A DNA stretch of 64,000 nucleotides from Burkholderiaceae bacterium (GTDB taxonomy: Bacteria; Pseudomonadota; Gammaproteobacteria; Burkholderiales; Burkholderiaceae_C): the NCBI GenBank assembly GCA_017992055.1, contig JAGOPK010000010.1, positions 108,659-172,658 on the forward strand, given 5' to 3'. The position numbers and the translations under genes were made by a program. The notes under the pieces are model-generated. The model ran no database searches and was not told the origin of the DNA. It worked only from the letters and a program-made list of their open reading frames with translations. Shown here piece by piece: positions 30,134-54,000 of the stretch (position 1 is the first letter of the stretch; every line of letters begins with the position of its first letter).

Positions 30134-30179
30134 AGCCCGTATTTCTCGCGATCTCAAGAATGGCCACTGACATTACGCC

Positions 30180-36608: not shown

Positions 36609-36630
36609 CGCCACCCTTTGACTTGCCTTC

Positions 36631-36682
36631 TTGTATGAGAGACCGTATCCTTATTGTATGAGTCTTTTTTCTATACGCATAC
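36631..36682. promoter_or_regulatory. Direct repeats and promoter between jetC and the WYL regulator
   Basis: TTGTATGAG occurs at 36631-36639 and 36654-36662, spaced 23 bp (about two helical turns). GTATG (36656-36660) also pairs with CATAC (36678-36682) as an inverted repeat. Read leftward, the second repeat overlaps TACAAT (36653-36658), a near-consensus -10 element for the jet operon. This is a natural operator for the divergent WYL regulator. Confidence 0.5.
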
Positions 36683-36722
36683 TGGTTATTCGCACAGGCC
36701 AGCCAGGCCGAGCACGCAGAAC

Positions 36723-37613: not shown

Positions 37614-37891
37614 ACGAATGACGCTCCCAAAGCATTCACTCTGCGGACCTCATCGCCCCGGACGTCATCGAAGCTGCAGGTTCTCAATCTGAGAGCTGCC
37701 TCCCCTTGTTCCGACGCATGAGGAGGTGCGAGCTGTCACCGTCGACGACCCCAATCGCAGCCCCCAAATGCCTTTCATTTCGCGCTGCAACACCCGGGTC
37801 CCGAGCTCTCAGGCGGAGCAAAGTCTTGCTGCTACATTTCAGAAGAGCCCTCACAGACAGGGCCAAACGCGCACGAGACAGAGGAATAGTC

Positions 37892-38665
37892 GTGTCACGC
37901 CCTCTCCGCAAGTACAAGCCAGACGGTACGCCGTATTTCCGGCGAAACGAAGTCGAAGCCGAGCTTCAATCTCTCACCGGAATCAGCGAAACCGAACTCG
38001 AACGGCGCGCGAGTCAGTGGTCAGCCAAAGAGCCCGATTTCGTTTCCCCCGAGGCACTGCTGTACTTTGTGCGGAACGCGGCACCCGGGCCCCACCGCGA
38101 TAAGCTGACCGATAACCTTCTCGTCCGCTTGATTCGCCGCGTCCCGTCAATTGCCAACGCCGGCGGCGATACGGTTTCGTTGACCAGGATGAACATCCGC
38201 GAAGAGGTCCGAGACCACTTCATCGACCTGCTACTCAGCGACCGGGAACAGTACGACGACCGCCTCGACTACTACGAGGTCAACTTCAATCACGCGGTCG
38301 CGGTGGATCGTCATGATGCGAATGCCCGTCATTGGAAGCGCGAAAATCGCGCTGCCGAACTCGAGAATGAGGACGGTGAGGTCTCTACCAAGGTCGAAGC
38401 GGTAGTCAAGTACGACCCGTTCGACGCCGACGAGCTCGACAAAAAAGATTACCGGCTCCGCCTTGACGATGCGATTGACAGCCTGCCTGATTTGCAGAGG
38501 AGGATCGTCGTGATGCTGCGCCAAGAAGTTCCTATTGAGTCCAAGGACCCCTCCGTTGAGTCCATCAGCAAGGCGCTGGGTAGGTCGGAAAAGAGCGTTC
38601 GCATGCATCGTGACAAGGCCTATGCGTCTCTAAAGCTTCGCCTCGAGCGCAAGGGGAAGATGTGA
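37892..38665 (+). CDS. Sigma-70-like DNA-binding protein (region 4-type helix-turn-helix)
   Basis: This 257-residue protein ends with a sigma region 4-like helix-turn-helix: LDDAIDSLPDLQRRIVVML, then SVESISKALGRSEKSVRMHRDKAYASLKLRL (about 190-250). A plausible region 2-like helical part lies at 100-170. It could be an alternative sigma factor or a sigma-like transcription activator for its own operon. The start is a GTG with GAGGA 6 bases upstream; the frame is open further up without support. Its stop overlaps the next gene's start (TGATG), so it is translationally coupled. Confidence 0.7.
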   Translation: MSRPLRKYKPDGTPYFRRNEVEAELQSLTGISETELERRASQWSAKEPDFVSPEALLYFVRNAAPGPHRDKLTDNLLVRLIRRVPSIANAGGDTVSLTRMNIREEVRDHFIDLLLSDREQYDDRLDYYEVNFNHAVAVDRHDANARHWKRENRAAELENEDGEVSTKVEAVVKYDPFDADELDKKDYRLRLDDAIDSLPDLQRRIVVMLRQEVPIESKDPSVESISKALGRSEKSVRMHRDKAYASLKLRLERKGKM

Positions 38666-39231
38666 TGGCCCAGCGTCCCCAGATCACGGCCGATGACGTC
38701 CTGAGTGCGTTCGCCATGGACTTCGAGCCTGGAGCCGGCGTACTGCAGCGATACCTCGCCCTGTACCCAGAACATTCCGTCGCTCTGATAGACCTTTCGA
38801 TGGAGCTGACTAGAGAGTTCGACGACGACCTCCCACCTGGTGCCGCAGAGTTCGACCTTGTCGCTGCAGGTATGGCGCGGCTTCGGGAGAACTCGATCAC
38901 CTTAGAGGCGTTGCAAGCCGCACCAGCCAAGGTCTTCACGACGGCATTCGACTTGCTTTCCCTGCCGTTGCAAGTTGGTCTTGCCTTCCGCGAACGTCGA
39001 ATAGACGTAACGACCTTACCCCGACGCATGGCCTTGACAGTGGCGAAGGCATTGAAAACATCGACAGAGACGCTTCTTTCGTATCTCTCGCTTCCTCCGA
39101 TGGTCTCAGCTGTACGCGCGAGGAAGTCGACCGTCAAGCCAACAGCCCCTGAGAAGGTGTCATTCGAGACGGTCTTGCGAGACGCTGGCCTCGATGAGAA
39201 TCAGATTTCGAACCTGCTCCGCGAGGAGTAG
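38665..39231 (+). CDS. Unknown protein paired with an ImmA/IrrE-type protease gene
   Basis: This 188-residue protein is not recognised. It is mostly helical by composition, with the segments GAGVLQRYLALYPEHSVALI (about 32-51) and ALTVAKALKTSTETLLSYLSLP (about 120-141). The latter is helix-turn-helix-like in spacing but not convincingly so. It lies between a sigma-like gene (overlap of 1 bp) and an ImmA/IrrE-containing helicase gene (2-bp gap). ImmA/IrrE proteases usually cleave a repressor encoded next door, so this protein is a candidate substrate or anti-sigma-like partner. That is inference. Confidence 0.65.
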   Translation: MAQRPQITADDVLSAFAMDFEPGAGVLQRYLALYPEHSVALIDLSMELTREFDDDLPPGAAEFDLVAAGMARLRENSITLEALQAAPAKVFTTAFDLLSLPLQVGLAFRERRIDVTTLPRRMALTVAKALKTSTETLLSYLSLPPMVSAVRARKSTVKPTAPEKVSFETVLRDAGLDENQISNLLREE

Positions 39232-39233
39232 TC

Positions 39234-42200
39234 ATGGACCCCATTGAGCTGGGGAGGCAGCACGCTCGGCGACTGCACGACGCCGCCGTTAAACGTGGAC
39301 GCAATCCGTGGTCACCATATGAATTTGCTGTCGGCATAGCCAAGGACCTCGGCATCAAAGTCGAAAGCTGCGCTCCAGGTGGCGCGCTCCTCGATGGCGG
39401 ACGCGCCAACTTTGACCCCGACGTCTCCCTCATCGTCCATGAGAAGAATGGGTCGCCCTTCGAACAGGCGTTCCTGGTAGCGCACGAAATCGGACACGCA
39501 CAACTGGGTGACGGCGAAGCAGAGGCTCTGCCCGCGGCGAACATCGACCCGGCTCGTACTTCGGAAGCGGCACCTGTCGGGATGGACCGCGTCGTCGACT
39601 ACAGCCGGCGCCAGCGAAGGGAGGTCCAGATGGACCTCTTTGCGCGTGAACTTCTTCTTCCTCGGCACCTAGTTGTCGATCAGCATCTCGCCCAAAGCCA
39701 AACCTGCTCCGACATTGCCGCGCGCCTTGGGGCCCCGTTCGAGGTCGTCGCGCAGCAGATGCTGGACGCACTGTTGCTCCCTGCCGTTCCGAACGTCGTC
39801 GCGGCGGAACCGGTCGAAATCCCGCTCAACGATAAGCAGAGAACCGCGGCCGAACACCGCGGCGCTGCGTTCTTGCTCCAGGCCGGTCCAGGCACGGGGA
39901 AGACGCGCACGCTTGTGGCCCGCGTTGAAAGCCTGCTCGACGATGGCGTAGACCCCAGGCGCATCCTGCTCTTGACCTTCTCGAACAAGGCCGCCGGAGA
40001 AATGGCCGAGCGGCTTGCGCAGAAGCGCCCACAGCAAGCGGCTGCGCTATTCATTGGCACGTTCCACAGCTTCGGCCTAGACATCCTCAGGCGGTTCAAT
40101 GACCAGTGTGGGCTGCCCGAAGACCCCCGTCTGATGGACCGCACCGAGGCAGTGGAGTTACTCGAAAACGAGTTCCCTCGGCTCGGCCTGAAGCACTACC
40201 GAAATCTATACGACCCCTCGCAGACGGTGGCCGACATCCTCACCGCGGTCTCCCGCGCCAAAGATGAAGTCACTGGCCCCCAGGCTTACCTCGACCTGGC
40301 TCAGGACATGCGCGCGGCGGCGGCCGACCCGGCCGCCCTCGAAGTAGCTGAGAAGGCAGAAGAGGTTGCCAAGGTCTACGCGCTCTACGAGGAGCTCAAG
40401 GCCACCGCTGGGTGCGTCGATTTCGGCGACTTGGTCATGCAGCCGGTGCTCCTCCTAGAGCGTGACGAAGCGGTCAGGACCCTGCTTCAGAGCGACTACG
40501 ACCACATCCTCGTCGATGAGTACCAGGATGTGAATCGAAGCAGCGTGCGGCTGCTCACGGCCCTGAAGCCCACCGGGGAGAACCTGTGGGTAGTTGGGGA
40601 TGCCAAGCAGTCCATCTATCGCTTCCGTGGAGCCTCATCGTTCAACATGGAGCGGTTCGGCAACAAGGACTTCGTTGGAGGGGTCCGCGACAGCCTGGAC
40701 ATCAACTACCGCTCCACATCGGAAATCGTCGGCGCCTTCTCGACATTCGCGACCACCATGAGCGCAGCGGACGGGGCCACGGCGCTCAAAGCCGACCGCG
40801 GCGCCGGTGGCGCAAAGCCAGAAATCATCACGGTCGGTGGTGGCGCACTCGTGACCCCGGCGCTCGTCGACAGCATCGAGAGGTTCCGGACAGCAGGGTT
40901 CCGCTATCGCGACCAGGCGATTCTCTGCAGAGGCAATGACAGGCTGTCCGATACCGCGCAAGAGCTTGAGCGTGCCGGCGTACCCGTCCTGTTCCTTGGC
41001 AGCCTTTTCGAGCGCACCGAGATAAAGGACCTGGTTGCGGTGCTGACGCTCCTCGTGGACAGGCGTGCAATGGGCCTGATTCGCACCGCTTGCTGGCCCG
41101 AGTTCGCGATGACGCTTGAAGACGCAGTGCGCGTGTTTGAGCGCTTGCGCAGTGCAGAAGTTGAGCCTGGAGCATGGCGGCAAGGCGCACCCGACGTCAC
41201 GCCAGGCGGGCAGGCTGCCCTGGCTGCACTTGGGGCCGCGCTGGACGGCTTCACCGCCACTTCCCAGCCTTGGACGGTGCTGGCGACTCTCTTGCTCGAC
41301 CGAACTAGACTGGCGGCGCGCATTGCCTCGTCGTCCAGCGTTCCCGACCAGGCGCAAGGTATTGCCATCTGGCAGTTCATGAACTTCGTGCGGGTCCAGC
41401 CCAACGGCCAAGGTCTCCCGATCCAGCGCTTGGCGGACCGCGTCCGGAGGCTCCTACGCCTGCGCGACGACAGGGACCTCAGGCAACTTCCTGCCGCGGC
41501 CCAGGGTATCGACGCGGTGCGCCTGATGACTATCCATGGGTCAAAGGGCCTCGAGTTCCCTGTCGTCCACATGGTGGGTGTGAATCAGGACTCGATCCCG
41601 GGCGCCATCCGGCCCTCCAAGTGCCCGCCGCCGAACGGCATGGTCACCGGTGGGCAGGGCAGCCCAGACGAAATTGCCCGAGCCGCGCACAACGAGGAAC
41701 AAGAGTGCCTCTTCTACGTGGCAATGTCGCGGGCTAGGGACCGTCTAGCGTTCTACGCCGCCACGGCGAAGTCCAACGGCGCGTCCAGACCGTTGTCCAA
41801 GTTCCTTGAACGAATCGGCGGTATCAAGCCAGAGCAGGTCACGCCATCGACGGTATTGCCGCCGGCCCCGGATGTTGCGCACATACCGGTGAACTTTTCA
41901 GGTACGCCGCGCTTTAGCGCCGAGGCAATTGCCCTGTATGAGGGATGTGGGCGGCGGTTCCTGTACACGCACCTGCTGCAGATCGGCGGCCGCCGACGAG
42001 TGAGCGCCTTCATGTTGATGCATGAGGCCATCCGTGACGTCTATAGGGCGGTCATAGCCCAGGGCGCCATCTCGGCAGGTCAGTGCGACGCGCTGCTTGC
42101 AGAGGCGTTTGTCGCCCATGGACTTCATGACCACGGCTACGTTGAGGAATTCCGTGCCATGGCGTCGTCGATGCTTGGCTACTTCCTCGAGTCACGGGCC

Positions 42201-42617
42201 GGCGCTCTGGCGGAAGCTCCCACCGCGTTGCGAATCATCTTTGACAACCATGAGGTTGAGGTTAGGCCTGACGAGGTTTTGGTGCGCAATGGCGTTCGAA
42301 CGCTGCGTCGGGTTAAGACCGGGCACGCTACCAGCAGTGCAGGGAAGGACGTCGGCGCCGCAGCGTTCGTCCTTGCGGCCCGTGCCGCCTTCCCGGACGC
42401 AATCGTGGAGCTGGTCTATCTGGCCGACGCCGATGCCAGACCGCTGGTGCTGACGGCCAGTCAACTGACCAAAAGTCAGCTCAAGTTGGGCGGCATCCTG
42501 GGCGACATCCGTGCGGGGAACTTCCGAGCGGCGGCGTCAGACATGACGTGCCCCAACTGCCCGGCATTCTTCGTGTGCGGCGCTGTGCCACAAGGGACCT
42601 TGGTGAAGGTCTTCTAA
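39234..42617 (+). CDS. ImmA/IrrE metallopeptidase - UvrD helicase - Fe-S PD-(D/E)XK nuclease fusion
   Basis: This 1127-residue protein has three parts. Residues 1-185 form an ImmA/IrrE-like zinc peptidase with AHEIGH (H84, E85, H88) and a downstream glutamate in REVQMDLFARELLLP. A UvrD/Rep-type SF1 helicase spans about 195-850, with motif I QAGPGTGKTRT (216-226), motif II VDEYQDV, motif III GDAKQSIYRFRG, and motif V TIHGSKGLEFPVV followed by YVAMSRARD. The C-terminus (about 880-1127) looks like a Cas4/AddB-type nuclease: one Cys in YEGCGRRFLY and three in CPNCPAFFVC, a pattern that binds a 4Fe-4S cluster. The catalytic E/D-x-K is atypical (RRVKTG). It starts 2 bp after the preceding stop. Confidence 0.85.
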   Translation: MDPIELGRQHARRLHDAAVKRGRNPWSPYEFAVGIAKDLGIKVESCAPGGALLDGGRANFDPDVSLIVHEKNGSPFEQAFLVAHEIGHAQLGDGEAEALPAANIDPARTSEAAPVGMDRVVDYSRRQRREVQMDLFARELLLPRHLVVDQHLAQSQTCSDIAARLGAPFEVVAQQMLDALLLPAVPNVVAAEPVEIPLNDKQRTAAEHRGAAFLLQAGPGTGKTRTLVARVESLLDDGVDPRRILLLTFSNKAAGEMAERLAQKRPQQAAALFIGTFHSFGLDILRRFNDQCGLPEDPRLMDRTEAVELLENEFPRLGLKHYRNLYDPSQTVADILTAVSRAKDEVTGPQAYLDLAQDMRAAAADPAALEVAEKAEEVAKVYALYEELKATAGCVDFGDLVMQPVLLLERDEAVRTLLQSDYDHILVDEYQDVNRSSVRLLTALKPTGENLWVVGDAKQSIYRFRGASSFNMERFGNKDFVGGVRDSLDINYRSTSEIVGAFSTFATTMSAADGATALKADRGAGGAKPEIITVGGGALVTPALVDSIERFRTAGFRYRDQAILCRGNDRLSDTAQELERAGVPVLFLGSLFERTEIKDLVAVLTLLVDRRAMGLIRTACWPEFAMTLEDAVRVFERLRSAEVEPGAWRQGAPDVTPGGQAALAALGAALDGFTATSQPWTVLATLLLDRTRLAARIASSSSVPDQAQGIAIWQFMNFVRVQPNGQGLPIQRLADRVRRLLRLRDDRDLRQLPAAAQGIDAVRLMTIHGSKGLEFPVVHMVGVNQDSIPGAIRPSKCPPPNGMVTGGQGSPDEIARAAHNEEQECLFYVAMSRARDRLAFYAATAKSNGASRPLSKFLERIGGIKPEQVTPSTVLPPAPDVAHIPVNFSGTPRFSAEAIALYEGCGRRFLYTHLLQIGGRRRVSAFMLMHEAIRDVYRAVIAQGAISAGQCDALLAEAFVAHGLHDHGYVEEFRAMASSMLGYFLESRAGALAEAPTALRIIFDNHEVEVRPDEVLVRNGVRTLRRVKTGHATSSAGKDVGAAAFVLAARAAFPDAIVELVYLADADARPLVLTASQLTKSQLKLGGILGDIRAGNFRAAASDMTCPNCPAFFVCGAVPQGTLVKVF

Positions 42618-42702
42618 AAAAATTTACCGGCGACGTCAGGTCGGTCCGATTGATGGGGTGTAGGGCAGCAATGGAGCTTCCTACAGACCTCACGAGGACT
42701 AT

Positions 42703-43443
42703 ATGAACTACGACGACGTTGGTGATGCGATCCGAGAGGGTCGTGCTTTGAGGGAGGCTTCCGCCTACCGCTTCCGGTTTGCCCTGGAAGGGCTGACCTT
42801 TCGCAACATTGATGTGCCTGACCCGGTTCCCACCGGCCGGCAAATTCTGGCCAGCGCGGGCCTGGACCACCGCGCTGACTACATCCTGTTCGCCTACCTG
42901 GACACGGGTGACTTCGAGGACGTCCGCCTGGACGAGACTTTCGACCTGCGCGGCAAGGGCGCTGAGCGCTTCATCGCGTTCAAGTCCGACCGCGACTTCA
43001 AGTTCTCGATGAACGACCGCCAACTGGCCTGGGGCCGCGCCGAAATCTTGGGCAGTGTCCTTTACGACCTCGCCGACGCCGCGCCGGATGAAGCCGTCTT
43101 TCTGGAAGTTCGCGGCGGTGAAGACCGCCTGATCGACCCGGACGACCGCATCAACCTCGACGCGCCGGGCATCGAGCGCTTCATCACCGCGCCCAAGCCG
43201 GAGACGGGCTACGTCATCTTGGTCAACTCTGAAGAGAAGTCCGTGCCGGACAAGCACGTCACCTTCGAGCAGGTGGTCAAGCTGTACTACCCGAACGCGG
43301 GCAGCGAGACGAACGTCAAGTTCTCGATGACCTATCGCAATGCGGCCTCGCTTCCCCACGCCGGCGAGCTCGGCGAGGGCGGCTCCGTCGAAGTCAAGAA
43401 GCAAGGGACGATCTTCAATGTCACCCGCACTGTTCAGTCTTAA
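42703..43443 (+). CDS. Multi-ubiquitin-like domain protein
   Basis: This 246-residue protein carries three tandem beta-grasp (ubiquitin-like) repeats of the Multi_ubiq type. The approximate spans are 20-93 (YRFRFALEG opening), 97-162 (FKFSMNDRQL opening) and 168-240 (GYVILVNSEEK opening). Each shows the alternating beta, helix, beta pattern. It is placed immediately upstream of a ThiF/E1 gene, as in predicted bacterial ubiquitin-like conjugation loci. The C-terminus is NVTRTVQS, without a Gly-Gly end. It begins 85 bp after the helicase fusion, with GAGG upstream, and its end overlaps the E1-gene start by 26 bp. Confidence 0.85.
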   Translation: MNYDDVGDAIREGRALREASAYRFRFALEGLTFRNIDVPDPVPTGRQILASAGLDHRADYILFAYLDTGDFEDVRLDETFDLRGKGAERFIAFKSDRDFKFSMNDRQLAWGRAEILGSVLYDLADAAPDEAVFLEVRGGEDRLIDPDDRINLDAPGIERFITAPKPETGYVILVNSEEKSVPDKHVTFEQVVKLYYPNAGSETNVKFSMTYRNAASLPHAGELGEGGSVEVKKQGTIFNVTRTVQS

Positions 43444-44599
43444 TCCCGATCTCGCCCGCCTTCGTTCGGAGGGCTACTTCATGCGCATCCAGGGCAGCCT
43501 CCTGGTGATGCTGGAAGTGCCCTACGTCAACGCGCAGGGCGAGGTCCGCTTTGGCACGCTGTCGTCGGCCCTTGACCTGGCCGGCGACCGCACCCGCAAG
43601 CCTGAGACGCACGTCATCAACTGGGACGGCGACTTCCCCTGCAATGCCGACGGCACGCGGCTGCAGGGGATCTCGCATGCGGAGCCGAACACCGACCTTG
43701 GCCACGGGCTCAAGGCACGTTTCAGCTTCTCCAGCAAGCCGAACGAATTGGGCTACCCGGACTACTACGCCAAGATGTCGACCTACGCGACCATCGTGTC
43801 CGGGCCAGCTGCGGTGCTGCAGCCGGGGATCAGCCCGCGCGTGTTCCGTGGCGGCGACGAGGAAGAGGAGGCCCGCGTCTTCCACTACCTCGACACGGCA
43901 TCCAGCCGCGTCGGGATCGGCGCGCTGGCCGCCAAGCTTGAGCAGGAAGTCGTGGCCATCATCGGCCTCGGCGGGACCGGCGGCTACATCCTCGACTTCG
44001 TGGCGAAGACGCCCGTCAAGCAGATTCACCTGTTCGACCCCGACGTCTTCCTGTCGCACAACGCCTTTCGTGCGCCCGGTGCGCCGACCCTGGACGAGCT
44101 GCGGGATGCCCCGATGAAGGTGGACTACCTGAAGGGCATCTACGGGCGCATGCACCGCTTCATCGAGGCACACCCTGTGGAGATGCAGGCGGAGACGCTC
44201 GGCCTGCTGGACGGCATCACCTTCGCCTTCCTCAGCATGGATGCCGGCGAGGAGAAGCGCTCCGTCGTGGCCAAGCTTGAGGCTCTTGGCGTGCCCTTCA
44301 TCGACGTTGGCATGGGCCTGGAACTCACGAACGGCAGCCTCGGTGGCATCCTGCGCGTCACGACGAGCACGCCCAAAAAGCGCGAACACATCCACCAGGG
44401 GCGCATCTCCTTCGCCGGCGGTGGTCGCCAGGACCTGTACGCGTCCAACATTCAGGTGGCCGACCTGAATGCCCTGAACGCGTGCCTAGCAGTGGTGAAG
44501 TGGAAGAAGCTCCGAGGTTTCTACCGCGATCTGGAGAACGAACACCACAGCACGTACACCACCGATGGCGGCATGCTGCTGAATGGAGACCGGACATGA
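43418..44599 (+). CDS. ThiF/E1-like adenylyltransferase with DUF6791-type N-terminal domain
   Basis: This 393-residue protein has an N-terminal domain (about 1-160) resembling the DUF6791 domain, which I take to be E2-like. Conserved-looking elements are INWDGDFPCNADG, FSSKP and LGYPDYYAKMSTY. The E1/ThiF fold begins near 178 with VAIIGLGGTGGYI (nucleotide loop) and continues with LFDPDVFLSHNAFR, the adenylation aspartate and arginine. Only two cysteines are visible, in FPCNADG and NACLAVVKW; the first is the better candidate for a thioester site. E1 enzymes adenylate the C-terminus of a ubiquitin-like protein, here probably the multi-ubiquitin protein encoded upstream. ATG 43418 lies inside the preceding gene's end. 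Confidence 0.82.
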   Translation: MSPALFSLNPDLARLRSEGYFMRIQGSLLVMLEVPYVNAQGEVRFGTLSSALDLAGDRTRKPETHVINWDGDFPCNADGTRLQGISHAEPNTDLGHGLKARFSFSSKPNELGYPDYYAKMSTYATIVSGPAAVLQPGISPRVFRGGDEEEEARVFHYLDTASSRVGIGALAAKLEQEVVAIIGLGGTGGYILDFVAKTPVKQIHLFDPDVFLSHNAFRAPGAPTLDELRDAPMKVDYLKGIYGRMHRFIEAHPVEMQAETLGLLDGITFAFLSMDAGEEKRSVVAKLEALGVPFIDVGMGLELTNGSLGGILRVTTSTPKKREHIHQGRISFAGGGRQDLYASNIQVADLNALNACLAVVKWKKLRGFYRDLENEHHSTYTTDGGMLLNGDRT

Positions 44600-45081
44600 T
44601 GCGTCACCAGACTCTTGAGCATCGCTTCGTCCGCAATGCCCCCCGCGAGCTGGATCCCGGCGTGCTGTACATATCGGTGGAATATGCGACCGCAGTTCAC
44701 TCGTGCTGCTGCGGCTGTGGCGACCGAGTAGTGACGCCGTTTACGCCGACAGACTGGCGCATGACATTCGACGGTGAGTCGGTCTCGCTTGATCCGTCGG
44801 TGGGTAACTGGAACCAGAAGTGCCGGTCCCACTACGTGATACGCCGGAACCGTGTGCTGGAGGCCGGCCCTTGGTCAAACGCCCAGGTCGAAGCAGAGCG
44901 TCGTCGAGACAAGAGGGCTAAAGCCGCCTATTTCGGCAAGACAGCAAACGCCCTGCCCAGCGCAGTTAACCAGGTGGCTGACTATGCGCCCAGCACAGCT
45001 ATGCAAGAGGCCAATCACTCTTCGCAGAGCCTCTGGGCACGGATCAAGTCGTGGATAGCCTTGTCGCGTTCGAGCAGGTGA
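44596..45081 (+). CDS. DUF6527 protein (ubiquitin-like system accessory)
   Basis: This 161-residue protein matches the DUF6527 pattern: a cysteine-rich segment HSCCCGCGDRVV followed by a W and then CRSHYVI, a likely metal-binding arrangement. The family occurs beside E1 and multi-ubiquitin genes. A processing-peptidase or conjugation role has been suggested for DUF6527-type proteins, but it cannot be tested from sequence. The start ATG overlaps the E1 stop (ATGA). A 54-bp gap separates it from the next gene. Confidence 0.75.
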   Translation: MMRHQTLEHRFVRNAPRELDPGVLYISVEYATAVHSCCCGCGDRVVTPFTPTDWRMTFDGESVSLDPSVGNWNQKCRSHYVIRRNRVLEAGPWSNAQVEAERRRDKRAKAAYFGKTANALPSAVNQVADYAPSTAMQEANHSSQSLWARIKSWIALSRSSR

Positions 45082-45135
45082 GCAAGGCGAAATAGAACGC
45101 CTGCATTCGATTTTTGTCATGGGAGCCATATCAGC

Positions 45136-47754
45136 ATGCACGTCACCTTTGGCCTGTTCCTGGACGCCCGCCAGGGCCCATCACCGACGAATTTCTTCAA
45201 CAGCCCTCTTGTTGGCCGGTTGGGCTTTCTCTCCCTGCTGGAGACCTACCTTGGCTTGTCGGCGCCCGAGGCCTCGTTCGCGAAGCGGGTAGCGGTCCAC
45301 TCCGGCCTGCTTCGAGCTCACGACAACGGCTCCCGCTTCTACAGCGAGTCCCTGCAGGTAGACAGCATCGGTACCGCCGCGCGCCTCCTGGCTTGGCGAG
45401 ACGAGTGGCGCCTCGGCGGCTGGGACGGCAGTGCGAAGGCAACGCACCCAGCGCGGATTCAGGAGCTTTCCGCCATCGAGACGGCCGCCGCCGGCAAGCT
45501 CCCGCCCGGGGAGGCCGAGCGTTTGCAGCTGGTAGTGCAAGCCCTGCGCGAGTCTGGCCCTGGCCCCATCAAGTCGGTTCACCTCGTTGACCCGTCCGAA
45601 GACTTCCCTCGCCTCTGGCGGCAAGTGCTCGACCTCCTGCCTGCCGTTGAGGTCCGTCTCCCCGAACCACAAGGCACAGGCCACCTCCGCGAGGTGCAGG
45701 AGCAGGCGCTGGCCGTTCTGGCTGGCCACCCGGCTGGCGACTTGGGCGCACCCGACGGCAGCGTCGTGTTGGCGCGCTCCCTCGCGGCCACAACCGCCGA
45801 GCACTGGCTGAGCGCCCACAACTTGCACGAGCCGGGCGACCGCCTGGTGCTGGCCGAGGACGCCGGAGATGGCCTCGACGTGTCCCTGTGCGCAACTGGC
45901 GGGGTCAACTGTGGGTTCGAACACCCTAGCCAGCTCCGTCCTGCCCTTCAGGCCCTGCCCCTTGCCCTCGAGCTGTGCTGGACGCCCCTCGACATCAACC
46001 GGCTGCTGGACTTCCTCACCCACCCGGTCGGCCCGTTCAGCCGCCGCGCAAGGGGTATCCTCGCCCGCGCTGTGTCCAAGCAACCCGGGATTGGAGGGGA
46101 GGCCTGGACTTCGGCCAAGGCCAAGCTCGCGACGGGAGAGGACGCCAAGGGAGTCGCCGACGAAATTGCCTTCTGGCTGGAATCCGAGCGCTGGACGCGC
46201 AACAGCGGTGTGCCCGTCGACGCACTCATCGCTCGGGTTGACCGATTGAAAGAAGCGATGCGGACGCGCCTCACGGGTGAAACCGCTGACGTTACGAGCT
46301 TTTTGGCTGCGCATCGTCAGTGCGCAGCCGTCCACGACGCGCTGACCGAGCTCGCCAGCCAGGGCCTGGCGACGGTGCTGCCTCGGCAAATTGAGCAGTT
46401 GGTCGCCCACGCCACGCCTGCAGGGGCCACTAACCCCGCCGCGGTTTCGCATGTCGGCTGCATGCGGTCTGCCAGCACCCCGGCCGCCTGTATAGAGGCC
46501 GCCGACGAAGTGGTCTGGTGGATGCCGTCCACCCCCGCCCTACCGTCGCCGCTTCCGTGGTCGCCGTCCGAAGTGGAAGCTCTCACCCAGCTTGGTGTCC
46601 AGCTACGCGACCCGGCACGCGAGCTGGTATCGCTGGCCGCGCAGTGGCTTCGCCCGCTGCTCGCAGCGCGCAAGCGCTTTGTCCTTGTCTGCCCTCCCCC
46701 TGGCGCCGAAGTGCATCCGATTCGCCAACTGCTCAAGAAGCTGCTGCCTGCAATCGAGAGCACCGCTATCGACCTTGATGCGGCGATAGGCTCCACTTTC
46801 ATCGGGTCCACCGCCGCAGCACTGGCACCGCAGCCTTTGCCGACGTCACCTCAACAAGTCCAACTCCCGCAGCCCGTACCGCTTGGTGGCTCCGAGCAGT
46901 CTTTCACCTCGCTCAACGAGCTCTTCAACGACCCTGCGCTTTTCGTGCTGAAGCGAGTGGCGGGCTTGGAGCCAACCTCGGTCCTGACCGTGGAGGAGGA
47001 CAACCGCCTGCTCGGCATCCTTGCGCACCGTGTGTTCGAGAAACTCTTCGAGCATCCCGATGCACTGACCTGGTCGAACCCCGACGCCGTCGCGTGGTTC
47101 CACGCCGAGGCCGACACGCTCCTGCAGACCGAAGGCGCCGTCCTGCTGATGCAGGGCGCGGGCGTCAGCCAGCAGCACTTCCGAAAGGTCTGCGAGGGCG
47201 CCATCTGCAGCCTGCTCGACCATCTGAGGTCGGCCGGGGCAACTCAAGTTCAGACCGAGGTCGCCTTCTCCGGAACCCTGGGTGCAGTACCGCTGGTCGG
47301 CAAGATTGACCTGCTGGTCACGCTCGATGACAAGCGAACCGTCGCCCTCGACATGAAGTGGCGGAGCGACAACTACTACGCCTCGCTGCTTCGCTCCGGC
47401 GAGCACCTGCAACTCGCGCTCTACTCCAGCCTCGTCGAGCAAAAGAACGGGGCCGCACCCGCCGCGCTCGGCTACTTCATCTTGGAGAGCGGCGCGCTCT
47501 ACATCACAGCAGCAGACATCTTCCCGAAGGCGCAGGTCAGGCGGCCGCCAGAAGGGGTAACCGTCGCCACCCTGCTGGACCAGGCGCGTGCGACTTGGAA
47601 CTGGCGCAAGGAGCAACTGGACGCCGGGGTCATCGATGTCGTTCCGGTAGACCCACCAGATGACTTCAACGGGCCCGATGGAACGCTTCCAGTAAAGGGA
47701 CCGAACAGCCGCTTCGACGGCGACCACCTCGTCTTGCTGGGAGGCTGGGAATGA
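45136..47754 (+). CDS. AddB-like PD-(D/E)XK nuclease protein
   Basis: This 872-residue protein has no Walker A motif but ends in a RecB-type nuclease domain (about 605-830). Visible elements are LGILAHRVFEKLF, GKIDLLV, then ALDMKWR (catalytic D...D-x-K) and HLQLALYSSL. The N-terminal 600 residues resemble the degenerate helicase-like body of AddB/RexB-type subunits. The start of the downstream AddA-like gene overlaps its stop (ATGA), the usual arrangement of an addB-addA pair. I see no Fe-S cysteine set. In this operon the pair is probably a specialised relative of AddAB rather than the housekeeping recombination enzyme. Confidence 0.78.
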   Translation: MHVTFGLFLDARQGPSPTNFFNSPLVGRLGFLSLLETYLGLSAPEASFAKRVAVHSGLLRAHDNGSRFYSESLQVDSIGTAARLLAWRDEWRLGGWDGSAKATHPARIQELSAIETAAAGKLPPGEAERLQLVVQALRESGPGPIKSVHLVDPSEDFPRLWRQVLDLLPAVEVRLPEPQGTGHLREVQEQALAVLAGHPAGDLGAPDGSVVLARSLAATTAEHWLSAHNLHEPGDRLVLAEDAGDGLDVSLCATGGVNCGFEHPSQLRPALQALPLALELCWTPLDINRLLDFLTHPVGPFSRRARGILARAVSKQPGIGGEAWTSAKAKLATGEDAKGVADEIAFWLESERWTRNSGVPVDALIARVDRLKEAMRTRLTGETADVTSFLAAHRQCAAVHDALTELASQGLATVLPRQIEQLVAHATPAGATNPAAVSHVGCMRSASTPAACIEAADEVVWWMPSTPALPSPLPWSPSEVEALTQLGVQLRDPARELVSLAAQWLRPLLAARKRFVLVCPPPGAEVHPIRQLLKKLLPAIESTAIDLDAAIGSTFIGSTAAALAPQPLPTSPQQVQLPQPVPLGGSEQSFTSLNELFNDPALFVLKRVAGLEPTSVLTVEEDNRLLGILAHRVFEKLFEHPDALTWSNPDAVAWFHAEADTLLQTEGAVLLMQGAGVSQQHFRKVCEGAICSLLDHLRSAGATQVQTEVAFSGTLGAVPLVGKIDLLVTLDDKRTVALDMKWRSDNYYASLLRSGEHLQLALYSSLVEQKNGAAPAALGYFILESGALYITAADIFPKAQVRRPPEGVTVATLLDQARATWNWRKEQLDAGVIDVVPVDPPDDFNGPDGTLPVKGPNSRFDGDHLVLLGGWE

Positions 47755-50700
47755 TGAACAACATCGAGTTCATCAGCGCAGGCGCGGGCAGCGGCAAGAC
47801 CTACAAGCTGACCGAGACCCTCGCCCAAGCGCTCGAGTCCGGTGCCGCACGGCCGCAAGCCATCTTGGCGACCACCTTCACGGTGAAGGCCGCCACCGAA
47901 CTGCGAGAGCGCGCCCGTTCCTGGCTCCTTGAGAAGGGACGCATCGACCTGGCCACCGCCATCGGCCAAGCGCGCCTGGGCACCGTCAACAGTGTTTGCG
48001 GCCAGATGCTCAAGCGGTTCTGCTTCGAGCTGGGTCTGTCGCCCGACCAGACCGTCCTGGGTGAAGGCCAGTCCAAGCGACTGCTCAAAGCCACCCTGGC
48101 CGAGTCCATGGATGCCGCCGCGCAAGCGGAGCTGGTTTGGCTGACCGAGCGGTTCGGAATCGAGCAAGCGGACTGGTCCAAGAACGTCGAGGCCGTCGTC
48201 AAGGCCGCGCTCGACAATGACATCACACCAGCGGCGCTTCGCGCGATGGGCGCCCAGAACGCAGACGCGATGCTCGCGAACTGGCCTGCTCCGACCGCAG
48301 GACCAGACCCGACCGCGGCGCTGAGCGCTGCGCTCAGCAAGGCGAACAAGGACGTCGTGTCCTACATCGAACAGACCCAAGCTGCCGGCGGAAAGATTGC
48401 CGACAACCTGCTCAAGGGACTCGACGCTTTGCAGAAGCTGGACCGACTGTTCAGCAGCGGCCGCTGGAGCTGGCCAGACTGGATTGGGGCGGCTGGACTC
48501 GACGCAGGCGCCAAGGTGAAGGACCTCATCGCCCCGCTGAAGGCCGCCGCTCAAGCCCACGAGTCGCACCCAGCCTTTCATGCGGAGGTTCGCCGGTATC
48601 TGGACTTGGTCTTCAACCTGGCCGCCGACGTTCTCGACGCCTACGAACAGGCCAAGAAGGCCCTGGGCGCCGTTGATTTCAGCGACCAGGAGGTTCTGCT
48701 GCTGCGGGCGCTGAGGACAAAGCCCAGCGTCCGCGAAGCCCTGGCGGCCGAGCTGGACCTCATCATGGTCGACGAGTTCCAGGACACCAGCCCGCTTCAG
48801 CTGGCGCTCTTCGTGGAGTTAGCTAAGCTGGCCAAGCGGTCGGTCTGGGTCGGCGACCCCAAGCAGGCCATCTACGGGTTCCGCGGCACAGACGCGAGCC
48901 TCATCGCAGGCGTCCTGGGCGCCATCAAGGATTGGGGCGGAACCATTGGGAAGGCCCTCGACACCTCCAGGCGTTCGGTCGAGGGCCTCGTTGCGCTCAC
49001 CAACGGCGTGTTTAGGTCTGCGTTCGAGCCCGACCTGACTCCAGCGCAGGTTCAGCTGCAACCGCTGCGAAAAGACATCCCGGACCAGGCAGCCCTCCTG
49101 AACTGGAACTTCGAGAGCAGCCGAAACGACTCGGACTACCTGGGCCTTGGACAAGCCGTCCGCGAACTGCTGGCTTCAGGCGTCAAGGTCGAGGACAAGG
49201 ACACCAAACAGCTGCGACCGATTCAAGCCGGCGATGTCGGGGTGCTCTGCCGCTATAACGACCAGGTCGAGTTTGCCGTCACGTCACTCACCCGCTGGGG
49301 CATCCCTTCAGCCAGCCCACGCTCCGGCCTGCTGGGGACTGCCGAGGCCATCTACGTGATGGCATGCCTGCGGCGCCTGAACGACCCGACCGACACGGTC
49401 GCGACGGCGCTGGTTCTCACCCTGGCTGACGGCATACCGGTCGAAACATGGCTTCAAGATCGGCTGCGGCACCTTGCCACCGATGGAGCCAAGTCCCATG
49501 AGTGGAAGACGACCGGCGACAACGCGCATCCGCTTCTGGCTCGACTGGAAGAGCTGCGCCCAACGCTCAACGCCTTGACACCACAGGAGGCGCTGCGACT
49601 TGCCGCCGCTGAATCCCAGGTCGCGCGCCTGGTCGGCCAATGGTCGGCCTCTCCTCACGAGAGCCGCAACCGCCTAGCCAATGTCGAAGCGCTGGTCGAG
49701 TTCGGCAAGACCTTCGAGGACGAGTGCGCTGCTGCGAAGCGGCCGGCAACCGTCAGCGGCATGCTGCGTTGGCTGGACGAGCTCGCCGGCGCAGAGGACG
49801 ACAACCGGGCGACCTCGGCAGACAACTCGGTCGCGGTCTTGACGTACCACGGAGCCAAGGGCTTGGAGTGGCCCGTCGTCGTGCTGACAAGCCTGGACGC
49901 GACAGCGCGGAGTTCACTCTGGGGCGTTCGCGCGAGGACGGTCGGTGCCTTCGACCCGCAACAGCCGCTGGTCAACCGCTTCGTCCACTGCTGGCTCAAG
50001 ACCTGGGGCAAGCGGTCCCAGCCACAGGCGGCCGCTAACGCCGAGGGTAGCGTCGCTGGTCAAGCCATGCAGGCCGAAGCTATGGCGGAAAACAAGCGCC
50101 TTCTATATGTGGGCCTCACCCGAGCCCGCGACATGAACGTCGCAGTCTCGTTCGTTCGGTCTCGCGGACCTGGACGAGCCTGGATTGAAGAAGTCCAGGG
50201 CGCGTCCAACCTGCTGTTCGGAGATTCCGGGAGTGTGGAACTCCCCGACGGCCGGCAGCTCTCCCGTTTGACAAAGACGTGGAGCAAGGAGGATTGCGCC
50301 GTCGAGCCGCCCGTCAGGGCTCGTGAGACTTGCCACTGGTTCATCCCTCGGCCCCGTACTGAGGGTGAGCCGCTGTGGCATCGACCCAGCGCCGCTTTCG
50401 GCGGCAGCTTCAAGGTCATCGATACCGATGTCGTAGGCGTCAGGCTGAGCCTGGCAGGAAAGCCGGACATGGCATCGCTGGGCACAGCACTCCACCTGTG
50501 CATCGCACGATCAGGCGTGCTTGGCAGCGTCCAAGCCCCGGAGGTCGAGCGCATCTTGGCGACTTGGGCCGTTGTGCACGCGGTGGACAAGGTCGCCGTA
50601 TGCGCCCAAATCGAAGCGTTCCAGGCATGGCTGAACAAGCGCTGGCCTAGCAGCCCCGTACATATCGAGGTGCCTATTGAATCTGCTGGCCCGAACGGCA

Positions 50701-50927
50701 CGCGAATCCGGGGTCGCATCGACATGCTGTTGGACACTCCAGAAGGCTGGATTCTCCTTGACCACAAATCAAACCCGGGTAGTGCCGCAAGGGACGAGGA
50801 CCTCGTGACTGAGCATGGCCCTCAACTTGACTCCTATGCTCAAGCCATCCTTGCTGCGACCGGAAAGCCTGTAAGTCAACGATGGTTGTACCTGCCGGTC
50901 GCTGCCCGGGTTGTACGCCTATCTTGA
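47751..50927 (+). CDS. AddA-like UvrD helicase-nuclease
   Basis: This 1058-residue SF1 helicase has motif I SAGAGSGKTYKL (9-20), ATTFTVKAATELRERA, motif II MVDEFQDTSPLQL (about 340), GDPKQAIYGFRG (about 365), YHGAKGLEWPVV (about 700) and VGLTRARD (about 785). A C-terminal RecB-type nuclease (about 900-1058) follows with RGRIDML and LLDHKSN (catalytic D-x-K) and QLDSYAQAI. It would unwind and degrade double-stranded DNA ends together with the AddB-like partner. Its start codon overlaps the AddB-like stop. It is the last gene of the rightward operon and converges with the gene at 51052-55620. Confidence 0.85.
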   Translation: MMNNIEFISAGAGSGKTYKLTETLAQALESGAARPQAILATTFTVKAATELRERARSWLLEKGRIDLATAIGQARLGTVNSVCGQMLKRFCFELGLSPDQTVLGEGQSKRLLKATLAESMDAAAQAELVWLTERFGIEQADWSKNVEAVVKAALDNDITPAALRAMGAQNADAMLANWPAPTAGPDPTAALSAALSKANKDVVSYIEQTQAAGGKIADNLLKGLDALQKLDRLFSSGRWSWPDWIGAAGLDAGAKVKDLIAPLKAAAQAHESHPAFHAEVRRYLDLVFNLAADVLDAYEQAKKALGAVDFSDQEVLLLRALRTKPSVREALAAELDLIMVDEFQDTSPLQLALFVELAKLAKRSVWVGDPKQAIYGFRGTDASLIAGVLGAIKDWGGTIGKALDTSRRSVEGLVALTNGVFRSAFEPDLTPAQVQLQPLRKDIPDQAALLNWNFESSRNDSDYLGLGQAVRELLASGVKVEDKDTKQLRPIQAGDVGVLCRYNDQVEFAVTSLTRWGIPSASPRSGLLGTAEAIYVMACLRRLNDPTDTVATALVLTLADGIPVETWLQDRLRHLATDGAKSHEWKTTGDNAHPLLARLEELRPTLNALTPQEALRLAAAESQVARLVGQWSASPHESRNRLANVEALVEFGKTFEDECAAAKRPATVSGMLRWLDELAGAEDDNRATSADNSVAVLTYHGAKGLEWPVVVLTSLDATARSSLWGVRARTVGAFDPQQPLVNRFVHCWLKTWGKRSQPQAAANAEGSVAGQAMQAEAMAENKRLLYVGLTRARDMNVAVSFVRSRGPGRAWIEEVQGASNLLFGDSGSVELPDGRQLSRLTKTWSKEDCAVEPPVRARETCHWFIPRPRTEGEPLWHRPSAAFGGSFKVIDTDVVGVRLSLAGKPDMASLGTALHLCIARSGVLGSVQAPEVERILATWAVVHAVDKVAVCAQIEAFQAWLNKRWPSSPVHIEVPIESAGPNGTRIRGRIDMLLDTPEGWILLDHKSNPGSAARDEDLVTEHGPQLDSYAQAILAATGKPVSQRWLYLPVAARVVRLS

Positions 50928-51051
50928 CTTATCAAGGATGCACTGGCCCAAGTTCGACACCGATGGTCGCCAGTAATCCTCCTGGGCTGCCTGGTTGTCA
51001 GCGAAGTTGTGATCGGCGAGAACTGGAATGGAGACTGGTCACTGGAAACTG

Positions 51052-54000
51052 CTAGACCGACGCCGCATCTTCCGCTTCGTCTACAGCCTGCGCAGCACGA
51101 ACCTCTCCGGCAGGCGCAGTGGCCGGAGGCCAATCCCGGCTCTCTACCACCGTCGGCACGCGCGCAAGGGCTCCTAGTGGTTCGATACCCATTGCATGCA
51201 ACCGTCCCCGGAGTTCCGTCAGCACATCGTCCTTGCGCAGCGACCACGTTGACGCAAAGCACCGCCAGAAGATCCATCCGGCTCGCTCAAGGATGCGCTG
51301 CCGCTGCATGTCGGCCGGCCACCTGTCAGGCCCGTGGAACTCATCGCCGTCGCATTCGATGGCAAGGCGAGTGTCGTTGGCACCTTCGACCACCATGTCG
51401 ATGCGGTAAGCGCCCGATTTCACTTGCGGCGTAACCCGGTAGCCAAGCTCGACCAGAGCGGAGTAGACGTCGCGCTCGAAGCCCGACTCGCACAGGTCGA
51501 TGAGCGTCTTCTCGGCTTCGGTGTCTTCCAGCGGGGAGCTGAAGTGCTCGACGAGGGTGCGGCGCACGTCGCTCAGTGAGAGCTCACCGAGCTTGACCGA
51601 GCGCACAAGATACATGCGGTCGCGTGCCCGGCTGGCTGCAACGTTGAAGCGCTGTTCGAACAGCTGGCCCGAGAGCGCGTGATGCTTGGAGTGGTCTGCG
51701 ACCATGCTCAAGAACATGATGTCGCGCTCACTGCCCTGGAAGACATACGCGTCACCACAAGCGAACTTTCGGCGCTCAAGCTCCGAGACATCCACGCGGC
51801 CGACCACAAGGTTGTAGATGTACTTCGCCTGGTCCGGTCCCAAGAGAGACACGACGCCGAGGGTGCGATTTCGAAGTTTCGGGTCACGCAAGATAGCCTC
51901 GATTTCATCGGCGATGAAATCGGCCTCTAATTTGTTGACATCCCGTGTGTCCCGAACGCCCTGCTCGATGAAGACGTCCACGAGCGGCGGGTCGATGCGT
52001 TCAGACGCCTTGGGCACACGCAAAGGCCGAATCTGGTTCTTGTAGAAGGTCTTGTTGCTGTAGGCGATGATGGGCTGCACGCAACGGAAGTGCTCGGCGA
52101 GCATCACGCGCTCGGCCGCAAACACGGTCGAGGCGATGTCGTAGAGCGACTTCTCGGGCGTGAGGTCGCGGCCATAGGGCTGGTCGGAGAGGAAGCGCTC
52201 TCTAAGCGCCAGTATCTTGGCTGCCGAGATGAACCCGCCGCTGGGCGAGACTTGCTTGTCGTCGCCCACCACCAGAATCTTCTTGCCGCGCAAGATGGCG
52301 GGCAGGGCCCAGAGGTCGGACTGGCTCGCCTCGTCGACGATGACCAGGTCGAAAACACCAAGCTGCGCGGGCATGCTCTCCGAAACCTTGGCGTGGCTCA
52401 TCACCCAGCACGGAATAGCCCCCTGCGCATCGACCATGGCCTTCTGAGCGTCTCGCCGGTAGCGCGTGGCGTTGGGGCCTGTGCCCTGTCCAATCTTTCG
52501 GATGGCGACGCGGTAGCTCTCCAGCGCGGAGAGCACTTTGGCCGAGGCCTGCGCCTTGGTCTGCAGCCAGGCCGATTTGGCCACGAGCTGCTCATATTGC
52601 TGCGCGAGCACCTTCTCCAAGTCCCTGCGGCGCTGCGAGAGCGTCAGCAGTTCCTCCCTCGCTTCGATGCCGGCGAGGTGGTTCTTGATGCGCGCCCAGT
52701 TCCAGGCCTCGCGCCAAGACACTGGCAGCGCCTCGTCGTCACCACTGGAGCTGAGCACCTGCGAACGCAGGCGAGCTGCCCACTTCTGGCCTCCACCACG
52801 CTCGATGCGACTGCACAGGTCGTTGACGCTGGCCAGGCTTGTCGAGAGCGACTCGATACGCTTGAGCTCGCCAATGAGCTCTGCATACTGGGCGACCACT
52901 CGCTCGGTCGCGACCTCGGGATTGCCCAGCTGGCCGTCGATGAAGCCTCGCAGGCGCTCAACGACGGGGCCATTGGTCCCGGCGAGCTTCTCTTGCAAGA
53001 TAGCCAGCTGTGCTGCAGCACTCGCGAGCTCTGCCCTTGTAAGGTGGCGTCGAAGCTGCTCGCGGACTTTTTGCAGCTGGGCTGAGCCTCCTAGCAGCTC
53101 GTTCTTCGGAGCGTCCCGGAACACCGTCTCGGCCAGACGCGGCAGGTGCGCATCGTGGTTGGTGGCGAGCTCATGGGCACGCTTGGCCGCCAGCGCAAGC
53201 TGCTCGGTCGAGCGCAGTGCCTCCACGTCCGCCTTGATTTCAGGCACCGAGAGCTCGCGCGCGAACTGGTTCCAGCGAACTGAGAACGACAACACCCGCT
53301 CGTGCAGACGCACATAGCGATGCACATGCACCCAATCGTCCTTCTGTTGCGGCGCGAGACCTGAGACTCGGATGGCGGCGACCAAATCCTTGAAGTCCCC
53401 GCCCCCGAAGCTCATCAGCCCAAAGGGCTTGCCCGTCTCCTTGGCCCGCTCGATGGCCTGCGTGACCTTGGGGTTGCCCAGCGCTGCCGAGGGCAGTGCC
53501 ACCGGTCTTTGCAGGAACGCAGCGCGTGCCTGCACCAGCTCGTCGACCTCGGTGAGCAACGCCTTGAGGGCCTCCTGTTCACTCACGAAGTCTGGCCGGC
53601 GGCACTTGGCGCGCAGCTCGAAGACCCAGGGTGACTCCAGTTCTTCGAGCTGCTGGACGGTCTTCAGCACAAGCTCCACAGCCGAGAGCATCCTGCGAGC
53701 TTCCTCAAGCACATCTGACGTCAAGGCACGCAGTGCGAGCAACTTGCCGTCGGCCTCGGCGCCGTCGATCTCTCGAATGCCCACCAGCGCGTCGTGAAGC
53801 TTGGCTACCTCCTCGCTGGGCAGCAGCTCGAAGCTCGAGGGCAGCCGAACGCCTGCGTAGACGAGGTCTGCGCCCAGGCGCCGGCGAGCGTCCTTCAGGG
53901 CTTGCGCTTCGAGGGTTGAGAGCGGCGGGGCGTGCTCAGGCTCGAGCGTGAGCTCGTCATCGAACCACCCGTGCGTTTGCTGGCCAGAGACCACGAGCTC

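Follow-up and report, generated by a model that had tools for sequence, protein, structure and literature searches.

The closest described relatives of the genes treated here are polyubiquitin-like (polyUbl) operons. In row 6e of Iyer et al. 2006, such operons are described as containing 2–3 tandem ubiquitin-like (Ubl) domains, an E1 with JAB or (variant b) with another domain, an inactive E2/RWD-type domain and a metal-binding protein with the pattern C-x3-C-x(35-38)-H-x2-C (PMC1779556). The Synechocystis pSYSX cassette is reported to contain multiubiquitin (mUb), E2, E1 and metal-binding protein genes by an ImmA-type (COG2856) gene (PMC4963859). For Bub operons, DNA-damage-responsive controllers (CapH and CapP, CapW, or CapK and CapS) are described upstream, and protection against phages is described as not demonstrated (PMC13373217). 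Activation by single-stranded DNA and cleavage of a partner protein are reported for ImmA relatives (PMC10904395). We analysed a stretch of 64,000 nucleotides from a Burkholderiaceae bacterium (GCA_017992055.1, contig JAGOPK010000010.1, positions 108,659–172,658; below, the window), in which three Ubl conjugation genes stand at places 4–6 of a block of eight genes (37892–50927). Genes 1–6 of this block are a conserved mobile Ubl tagging cassette; the eight genes are not one system.

The eight rightward open reading frames (ORFs; P0001–P0008, below genes 1–8) that a first-pass annotation had placed in a tight block were all found, and the remeasured junctions agreed with the spacing given there (overlaps of 1–26 bp at four of seven junctions, gaps of 2, 54 and 85 bp). 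All lie on the plus strand. The sigma-like gene 1 (sig, 257 aa, 37892–38665) overlaps gene 2 (unk, 189 aa, 38662–39231) by 4 bp, and a 2-bp gap separates gene 2 from gene 3 (39234–42617), which encodes a 1127-aa fusion of an ImmA/IrrE peptidase, a UvrD helicase and a PD-(D/E)XK-like domain. The polyubiquitin gene 4 (42703–43443) follows after 85 bp and overlaps gene 5 (DUF6791 fused to ThiF/E1, 43418–44599) by 26 bp, which in turn overlaps gene 6 (DUF6527, 44596–45081) by 4 bp; the E1 start was set at 43418, where the NCBIfam match begins, and the DUF6527 start at 44596. After a further 54 bp come the AddB-like gene 7 (45136–47754) and, overlapping it by 4 bp, the AddA-like helicase-nuclease gene 8 (47751–50927). 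Domains of the window proteins were called by Pfam, PADLOC and NCBIfam scans.

The order of genes 1–6 was found to be kept across alpha-, beta- and gammaproteobacteria. A pattern scan of a species-genome collection with E1 gave 15 loci, of which eight (Acidovorax, Azospira, Thiobacillus, Pseudomonas, Duganella, Derxia, Rhodoplanes, and Burkholderia) showed genes 1–6 in the same order, gene 3 being interrupted in one (L029). The other seven contained genes 5 and 6 and a Ubl gene, and the trio of genes 1–3 was not in the stretch covered. Plasmids of Agrobacterium, Mesorhizobium, Cereibacter, Acinetobacter, Klebsiella, and Rhizobium also carry the six genes; in the copies seen from Acinetobacter and Rhizobium, gene 3 is interrupted. 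A relative of E1 was present in 116 plasmid records. Including the window, 31 loci with gene 2 were collected, which form 24 clusters at 80% identity. A gene-2 profile matched in 6 of 397 genomes (our own included), each time inside a polyUbl locus, and all six were among the 18 genomes containing Multi_ubiq. No relative of gene 2 was found among viral contigs (22 pattern matches), no match to gene 3 among the phages searched at E 1e-40, and just short pieces in four records when plasmids were searched for near-identical DNA. As to the co-occurrence of Ubl and nuclease genes that the first-pass annotation had envisaged, the Ubl genes and the ImmA-UvrD gene were found together in many genera, and their adjacency is thus not accidental; AddB/AddA proved not to be a fixed part of the block.

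The trio was also found beside other Ubl sets, in examples picked by hand from plasmid relatives of gene 3, which are not a random sample. On a R. beringeri plasmid it stands with polyUbl, JAB and a different E1; in S. mexicanum and, divergently oriented, in Robbsia with polyUbl, a longer ThiF and DUF6527; and in Xanthomonas with JAB, ThiF, DUF7665 and a further small protein, similar layouts being present in Variovorax and R. leguminosarum. P. koreensis was an exception: there gene 3 is followed by an IS66 element, and a Ubl-type ORF comes 6.4 kb after that. In Xanthomonas euvesicatoria (L077, 5452–13084) the trio heads genes for an unknown protein, DUF7665, JAB and ThiF, and on the plasmids L076 and L078 it likewise heads a different Ubl set. 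The R. beringeri plasmid (L030, 14057–24560) carries two divergent Ubl cassettes, one of JAB type with the trio and one of DUF6527 type without it, and these two may share one switch. A further locus (L055, 7654–12007, genome G033) contains sig, unk, a Ubl gene and both copies of a motif described below, with gene 3 and E1 not recognised, and is perhaps a decayed cassette.

For the AddB/AddA-like pair, 18 six-gene loci with an E1 of the window type and at least 6 kb of downstream sequence were compared (the window, L015, L017–L021, L031, L032, L034, L037, L041, L044, L054, L064, and L069–L071; L016 and L029 were excluded as too short downstream). By annotation or BLAST label, such a pair was found downstream in three of them, the window, L031 and L071. 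The window AddB gave no match in L031, and the AddB of L071 was of the L031 type, so both carry a different AddB. A RecB-like gene lies 2.9 kb on in L018, and a small gene plus UvrD in L069; no AddB/AddA-like pair was found behind the cassettes with a longer E1 in L042 and L050. None of the 15 E1 loci had the window's AddB behind the cassette within the stretch covered, which was short in some. Among 397 Pseudomonadota genomes this AddB was found in seven including our own, and of the other six, G304 alone contained Multi_ubiq. The closest AddB relatives found (G285, 65%; Variovorax, 53%) stand without Ubl genes, none being present in the whole G285 genome or in the 22.6 kb covered on the Variovorax plasmid, where a WYL gene faces AddB-AddA. 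Directly behind DUF6527, pairs with AddB of two types, unconnected by BLAST, were found in Rhizobium (R. etli), Agrobacterium (A. fabrum) and Mesorhizobium. In R. etli L062, an AddB of the window's family (29–32%) lies behind a Ubl triad without genes 1–3, and the G304 locus (L047) was 100% identical to L062 in E1, AddB and AddA.

From the low frequency of the pair in the 18 loci, together with the AddB relatives that lack Ubl genes, it follows that the pair is a module of its own that sometimes stands behind Ubl triads. The AddB/AddA neighbourhood thus recurs as an optional add-on, and the eight-gene unit was rejected as a conserved system. In this genome, transcription from the putative Ubl promoter may extend into the pair. 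Pfam assigned PDDEXK_1 to P0007 and UvrD plus PDDEXK_1 to P0008, its partner. As in AddAB/RecBCD, both PD-(D/E)XK sites and the helicase motifs are kept: AddB residues D725, D739, K741, Q759 and Y763 in 10/10 sequences, and AddA residues D991, D1004 and K1006 in 9/9. Unlike AddAB, P0008 scored 159.6 against an AddA cut-off of 707.65 (NCBIfam, TIGR02785 and others), P0007 had no NCBIfam match, and some relatives have a WYL gene nearby. On the plasmid of R. etli 8C-3 (L063), a Ubl triad is preceded by WYL and a RecB-like nuclease and followed by RmuC, and in L030 SbcD/SbcC-like genes lie behind DUF6527. These two loci suggest that genes for DNA-end processing, from unrelated families, are repeatedly acquired by Ubl triads.

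Genes 4–6 fit the polyUbl operon of row 6e in its variant with another domain replacing JAB. P0004 showed three Multi_ubiq repeats (185 bits) and matched solved multi-ubiquitin chains such as 9cd2. It ends in ...TRTVQS, and the C-terminal residue was Ser in 39 of 40 Ubl genes whose locus has an E1 of this size, the sole other terminus being that of the JAB-type cassette of L030. P0005 matched NF004802 (676 bits, cut-off 601), with Pfam ThiF under its cut-off and no JAB. Residues were counted in 39 E1 ORFs of 380–435 aa (the profile matched 58 ORFs): those of the ThiF nucleotide loop GxGGTG were kept in 38–39, and Cys101 of DUF6791 in 38, within H-x2-N-W-x-G-x2-P-C and ten residues past the His. 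This layout presumably resembles the HPN-Cys layout of E2, and the conserved Cys hints at an active E2 in DUF6791; no separate E2/RWD domain was detected in the cassette by Pfam. P0006 is a probable metal-binding protein with conserved C75, C77, C79, C114 and H117 (ORF numbering), and its pattern C75-x3-C79-x34-C114-x2-H117 is near that of row 6e and not identical to it. The tandem Ub-like domains, the E1 with a non-JAB domain and a small, probably metal-binding protein are shared with row 6e as described in PMC1779556; what differs is that the unit here also includes a trio of sigma-like, unknown and ImmA-UvrD genes and a motif shared in two copies.

Pfam matched Peptidase_M78, UvrD and PDDEXK_1 in P0003. 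Full-length gene-3 products were aligned from 27 of the 31 loci, leaving out L029, L032 and L064 (interrupted) and L055 (none recognised). The ImmA residues H84, E85, H88 (motif HEIGH) and E130, the last being the predicted third metal ligand, were invariant, as were K223, D428 and E429 (Walker residues) and four cysteines (Cys905, Cys1106, Cys1109, and Cys1115), which by analogy would be of Fe-S type. At position 1026, which corresponds to the catalytic acid of the D/E-x-K motif (located by eye against P0007 and P0008), no sequence was acidic and 20 had Arg. The position of the motif's lysine was Lys in 9 and Arg in 14 of 27, and the upstream Asp1013 was kept in 23. The earlier description as ImmA-UvrD-nuclease agrees with the Pfam match, but with a degenerate site the label does not imply cutting; gene 3 as an active helicase-nuclease was rejected, and of the “two helicase-nucleases” proposed, cutting looks possible for the AddA-like one only. 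Judged from its domains, gene 3 probably senses DNA that is damaged, single-stranded or broken and does not cut it. Like PprI/IrrE with DdrO and CapP with CapH (PMC10904395), it has an ImmA/IrrE-type metallopeptidase that keeps HExxH, and a DNA signal and a cleaved partner are proposed for it. It differs from these systems in that the peptidase is fused to UvrD, the presumed partner has no recognised helix-turn-helix (HTH) and the output would go via a sigma-like factor.

The sigma assignment of gene 1 comes from its C-terminal region 4. TIGR02937 matched residues 145–251 (E 1e-6, under cut-off), region 4 was also under the Pfam cut-off, and the best Pfam match, likewise under cut-off, was Rogdi_lz. 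A gene-1 profile compared with 12 sigma proteins of the same genome gave 97.8% probability, carried by region 4. We lean, with some reserve, towards gene 1 being a sigma factor.

Two copies of the motif TTACCGG-N16-CGATT were found on the plus strand of the window, one within the gene-1 coding sequence (38449–38476, 185 bp upstream of the gene-2 start) and one 51 bp upstream of the polyubiquitin start (42624–42651). They were the only perfect matches in the window, and none occurred in 100 shuffles; a window scan allowing three mismatches gave 34 matches against 26.6 expected, so that perfect matches alone are informative. Scanning 1.26 Mb of fetched loci with the pattern TTNCCGG-N14-17-CGATT gave 38 matches, of which 21 lay behind gene 3 or before a Ubl gene, 16 inside sig and one elsewhere. 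In our own 5.9-Mb draft genome exactly two matches were found, both at these places, and none with a reversed-pattern control. Across eight trio genomes, 14 of 29 matches lay at the two places, and since the other 15 are near the 12 of the reversed control, no wider regulon is claimed. With at most one mismatch, the motif (consensus TTWCCGG-N15/16-CGATT) was present behind gene 3 in 24/31 and inside sig in 25/31 trio loci, and before the Ubl gene in 0/29 non-trio loci. In some loci both copies vary together, with TTTCCGA in L030, TTACCGA in L032, and TTTCCGG in L042 and L075, the kind of joint change that a shared reader protein would produce.

The sig-internal copy is held as DNA by selection across genera. 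In the sig alignment (30 of 31 sequences; the gene of L074 was unrecognised), the codons under the boxes were Arg CGG in 22/26 (5.65 expected from local codon use), Ala GCG in 21/21 (6.85 expected) and Ile ATT in 24/25 (7.18 expected), and these three were within the top five of 92 tested columns. The codon ahead of the first box ended in T in 26/30 sequences, across Asp, Ile, Phe, Asn, Ala, Thr, Tyr, Arg and Leu. No comparable codon constraint was found in gene 2 (best z 4.3 over 67 columns). The spacing of 15–16 bp and the location before the Ubl start favour a promoter. An AGGAGG followed 9 nt on by an in-frame ATG (38498–38515, plus strand; Met208 of P0001) suggests a candidate internal ribosome site, and Met was present at this position in 22/30 sig sequences. 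The internal ATG could yield a 50-aa product with region 4 only, or couple translation into gene 2. An RNA hairpin at copy 2 was considered and rejected: ACCGG...CCGGT occurs in the spacer of some species and is absent in others, so the two boxes, not a stem, are conserved.

Stand-alone ImmA, WYL or CapK-like genes were sought within 2.6 kb of the whole cassette in 60 loci. A separate controller was present in 1/31 trio loci, namely the WYL gene of the window itself, two further hits (L029 and L064) being pieces of their own interrupted gene 3. Among non-trio loci one was present in 22/29 (18 ImmA, 1 WYL, and 3 CapK-like); three of these ImmA calls (E 2e-7 to 1e-4) and one CapK-like call are weak. 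As the 60 loci are phylogenetically related and E1 similarity served to collect many of them, no probability is attached to this contrast. Of the seven non-trio loci without a controller in range, L063 has its WYL gene with the RecB-like gene in between, and the trio loci of S. mexicanum and R. leguminosarum have WYL genes farther away. From the contrast in separate controllers, genes 1–3 look like a control module for the Ubl genes. Bub operons likewise combine a Ubl operon with a damage-responsive upstream controller (PMC13373217), and controller genes of this kind adjoin the non-trio loci here; the difference is that the controller of the trio loci is a sigma-like protein plus an ImmA fused to a helicase.

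Taken together, genes 1–6 can be read as a mobile polyUbl conjugation cassette with a built-in stress switch, genes 1–3 controlling genes 4–6, a reading for which we see the chances as evenly divided. It starts from the order of the genes, the conserved residues, the two copies of the motif with their constraint at DNA level and, in several loci, joint variation, and the scarcity of other controllers beside the trio. The UvrD helicase of gene 3 would sense damaged, single-stranded or broken DNA, and its DNA-bound state would activate the fused ImmA/IrrE protease, which would cleave gene 2, the presumed partner holding the sigma-like gene 1. Freed gene 1, as the putative reader of the motif, would steer RNA polymerase to two matching promoters, the one inside sig serving genes 2 and 3 and the one before the Ubl gene serving genes 4–6. 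Tagging would then be carried out by the three-domain Ubl, the DUF6791-E1, which may both activate and transfer it, and the putative metal-binding accessory protein, possibly with defence as the output, while the AddB/AddA pair with its intact nuclease residues would stand as an independent module. A fuller version holds that a nuclease-dead helicase-protease gauges DNA damage, cleaves a partner of anti-sigma type and thereby frees a private sigma with two promoters genome-wide, one of them in the sigma gene with an internal ribosome site, whereby sensor and tagging genes would be induced jointly, and that the trio is common to at least four Ubl operon types; this we offer tentatively, as something possible that may well fail in part.

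As far as the searched literature shows, three features are new: the trio as putative controller, the nuclease domain with its degenerate site, and the motif in two copies, of which one lies within the sigma gene. The trio was not found there, and Ye et al. 2026 and Gong et al. 2025 may list it; the words “helicase”, “UvrD” and “sigma factor” have zero occurrences in the texts of PMC1779556 and PMC4963859. If genes 1–3 form a private sigma-type switch, its two defined promoter sites would allow a direct reporter assay for the inducing signal, gene 2 gives a specific substrate guess for the ImmA protease, and a regulatory site hidden in coding sequence is kept by selection across genera. The switch would bear on what such Ubl conjugation operons do and what triggers them.

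Several observations weigh against the switch. A Pfam Sigma70_r2 scan of our own genome missed gene 1, its N-terminal half gave 3% (E 0.015) against a sigma alignment where an unrelated ImmA control gave 8.6% (E 0.0039), and no sigma factor was matched when the gene-1 profile was compared with solved structures; gene 1 could be a non-sigma activator. Gene 2 resembled no known family in Pfam, NCBIfam and PADLOC scans and a further search, and its role as protease substrate is a guess from gene position. The motif was missing behind gene 3 in 7/31 loci (L029, L048, L055, L074, and L076–L078), where L055 has a copy found by pattern scan though no gene 3 and L074 has its Ubl genes oriented oppositely, and inside sig in 6/31 (L044, L048, L074, and L076–L078). 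Within L020, L029 and L064 the two copies are not alike, and the other two of the top five sig columns lie outside the boxes, just downstream (R266 AGG and L260 CTA). Gene 3 is interrupted in the otherwise complete cassettes of L029, L032 and L064, where the switch would seem dispensable or decaying. Finally, the window has a WYL gene 278 bp upstream of gene 1.

The first-pass annotation had proposed a single system of all eight genes, with the Ubl machinery modifying or marking a target (perhaps one of the nucleases) and two helicase-nucleases processing invading DNA. The tight spacing, with no terminator-like site listed by a scan of the 54-bp DUF6527/AddB gap, is in line with this, as are the pairs directly behind DUF6527 in R. 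etli, A. fabrum and Mesorhizobium and the SbcD/SbcC-like or RmuC genes behind other polyUbl triads. With a pair in 3/18 loci, the window's AddB family in the window only among these, the closest AddB relatives standing apart from Ubl genes, no motif copy before AddB and no nuclease acid in gene 3, we hold it to be improbable. Nor do we think it likely that gene 3 is itself the effector, a helicase-protease that unwinds invading DNA and cleaves protein there, targeted by the Ubl genes. Its helicase motifs are fully conserved (27/27), and PADLOC matched it to GajB and to a DRT-associated helicase, matches that may rest on the shared helicase domain alone; but gene 3 occupies the place of dedicated regulators in other polyUbl loci and forms one unit with the sigma-like gene and motif copy 1, and the stand-alone ImmA-type genes near other polyUbl loci (173–362 aa) are too short for such a helicase.

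The two-box motif might instead be the operator of a repressor or activator, either gene 2 or gene 1, the latter then being an HTH protein other than a sigma factor. Sigma region 2 was undetected in gene 1, annotators label some gene-1 relatives “response regulator” or “LuxR” and others sigma factors, and the constraint on the motif would fit any DNA-binding protein. The two asymmetric, unlike boxes at a fixed distance close to the Ubl start look like -35/-10 elements, however, and a simple scan of 36500–51200 found no sigma-70-type promoter, which leaves the operator in our view rather doubtful. Much less credible is that ImmA-HTH pairs and the trio are toxin-antitoxin stabilisers of mobile Ubl cassettes. 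Such a role was put forward for Synechocystis pSYSX, where it sets that cassette apart from the present one, and 70% of PF14452 proteins are reported to adjoin COG2856/DUF955 loci, read as toxin-antitoxin pairs (PMC4963859); the 116 plasmid records with an E1 relative also agree with it. Against this, a motif common to the sig gene and the pre-Ubl region implies regulation, and a role in DNA-damage regulation is reported for ImmA-type proteases that have partner repressors (PMC10904395, PMC13373217).

The WYL gene of the window (36654–37613, plus strand) is 58.6% identical to the Variovorax WYL gene that faces AddB-AddA and may regulate P0007–P0008 or the leftward condensin-type operon. We do not claim that the six-gene cassette was inserted between WYL and AddB, as the orientation differs from that in Variovorax. 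The condensin-type operon (28838–36614, minus strand) comprises DUF3584, MksE, DUF7281 and two unassigned genes; the Wadjet-like neighbour named in the first-pass annotation is thus borne out in its MksE/DUF3584 content and layout, without a match to a PADLOC Wadjet model. The restriction-modification locus named there corresponds to a ResIII/EcoEI_R_C restriction-type protein (60649–63159). This protein and an SNF2-type helicase next to a PLD-domain protein (24124–28841) are probable further defence-island genes. At 51052–55620 on the minus strand, a 1522-aa SF1 helicase with an MTES_1575 restriction-type domain is encoded, with PDC-S37 as its best PADLOC match.

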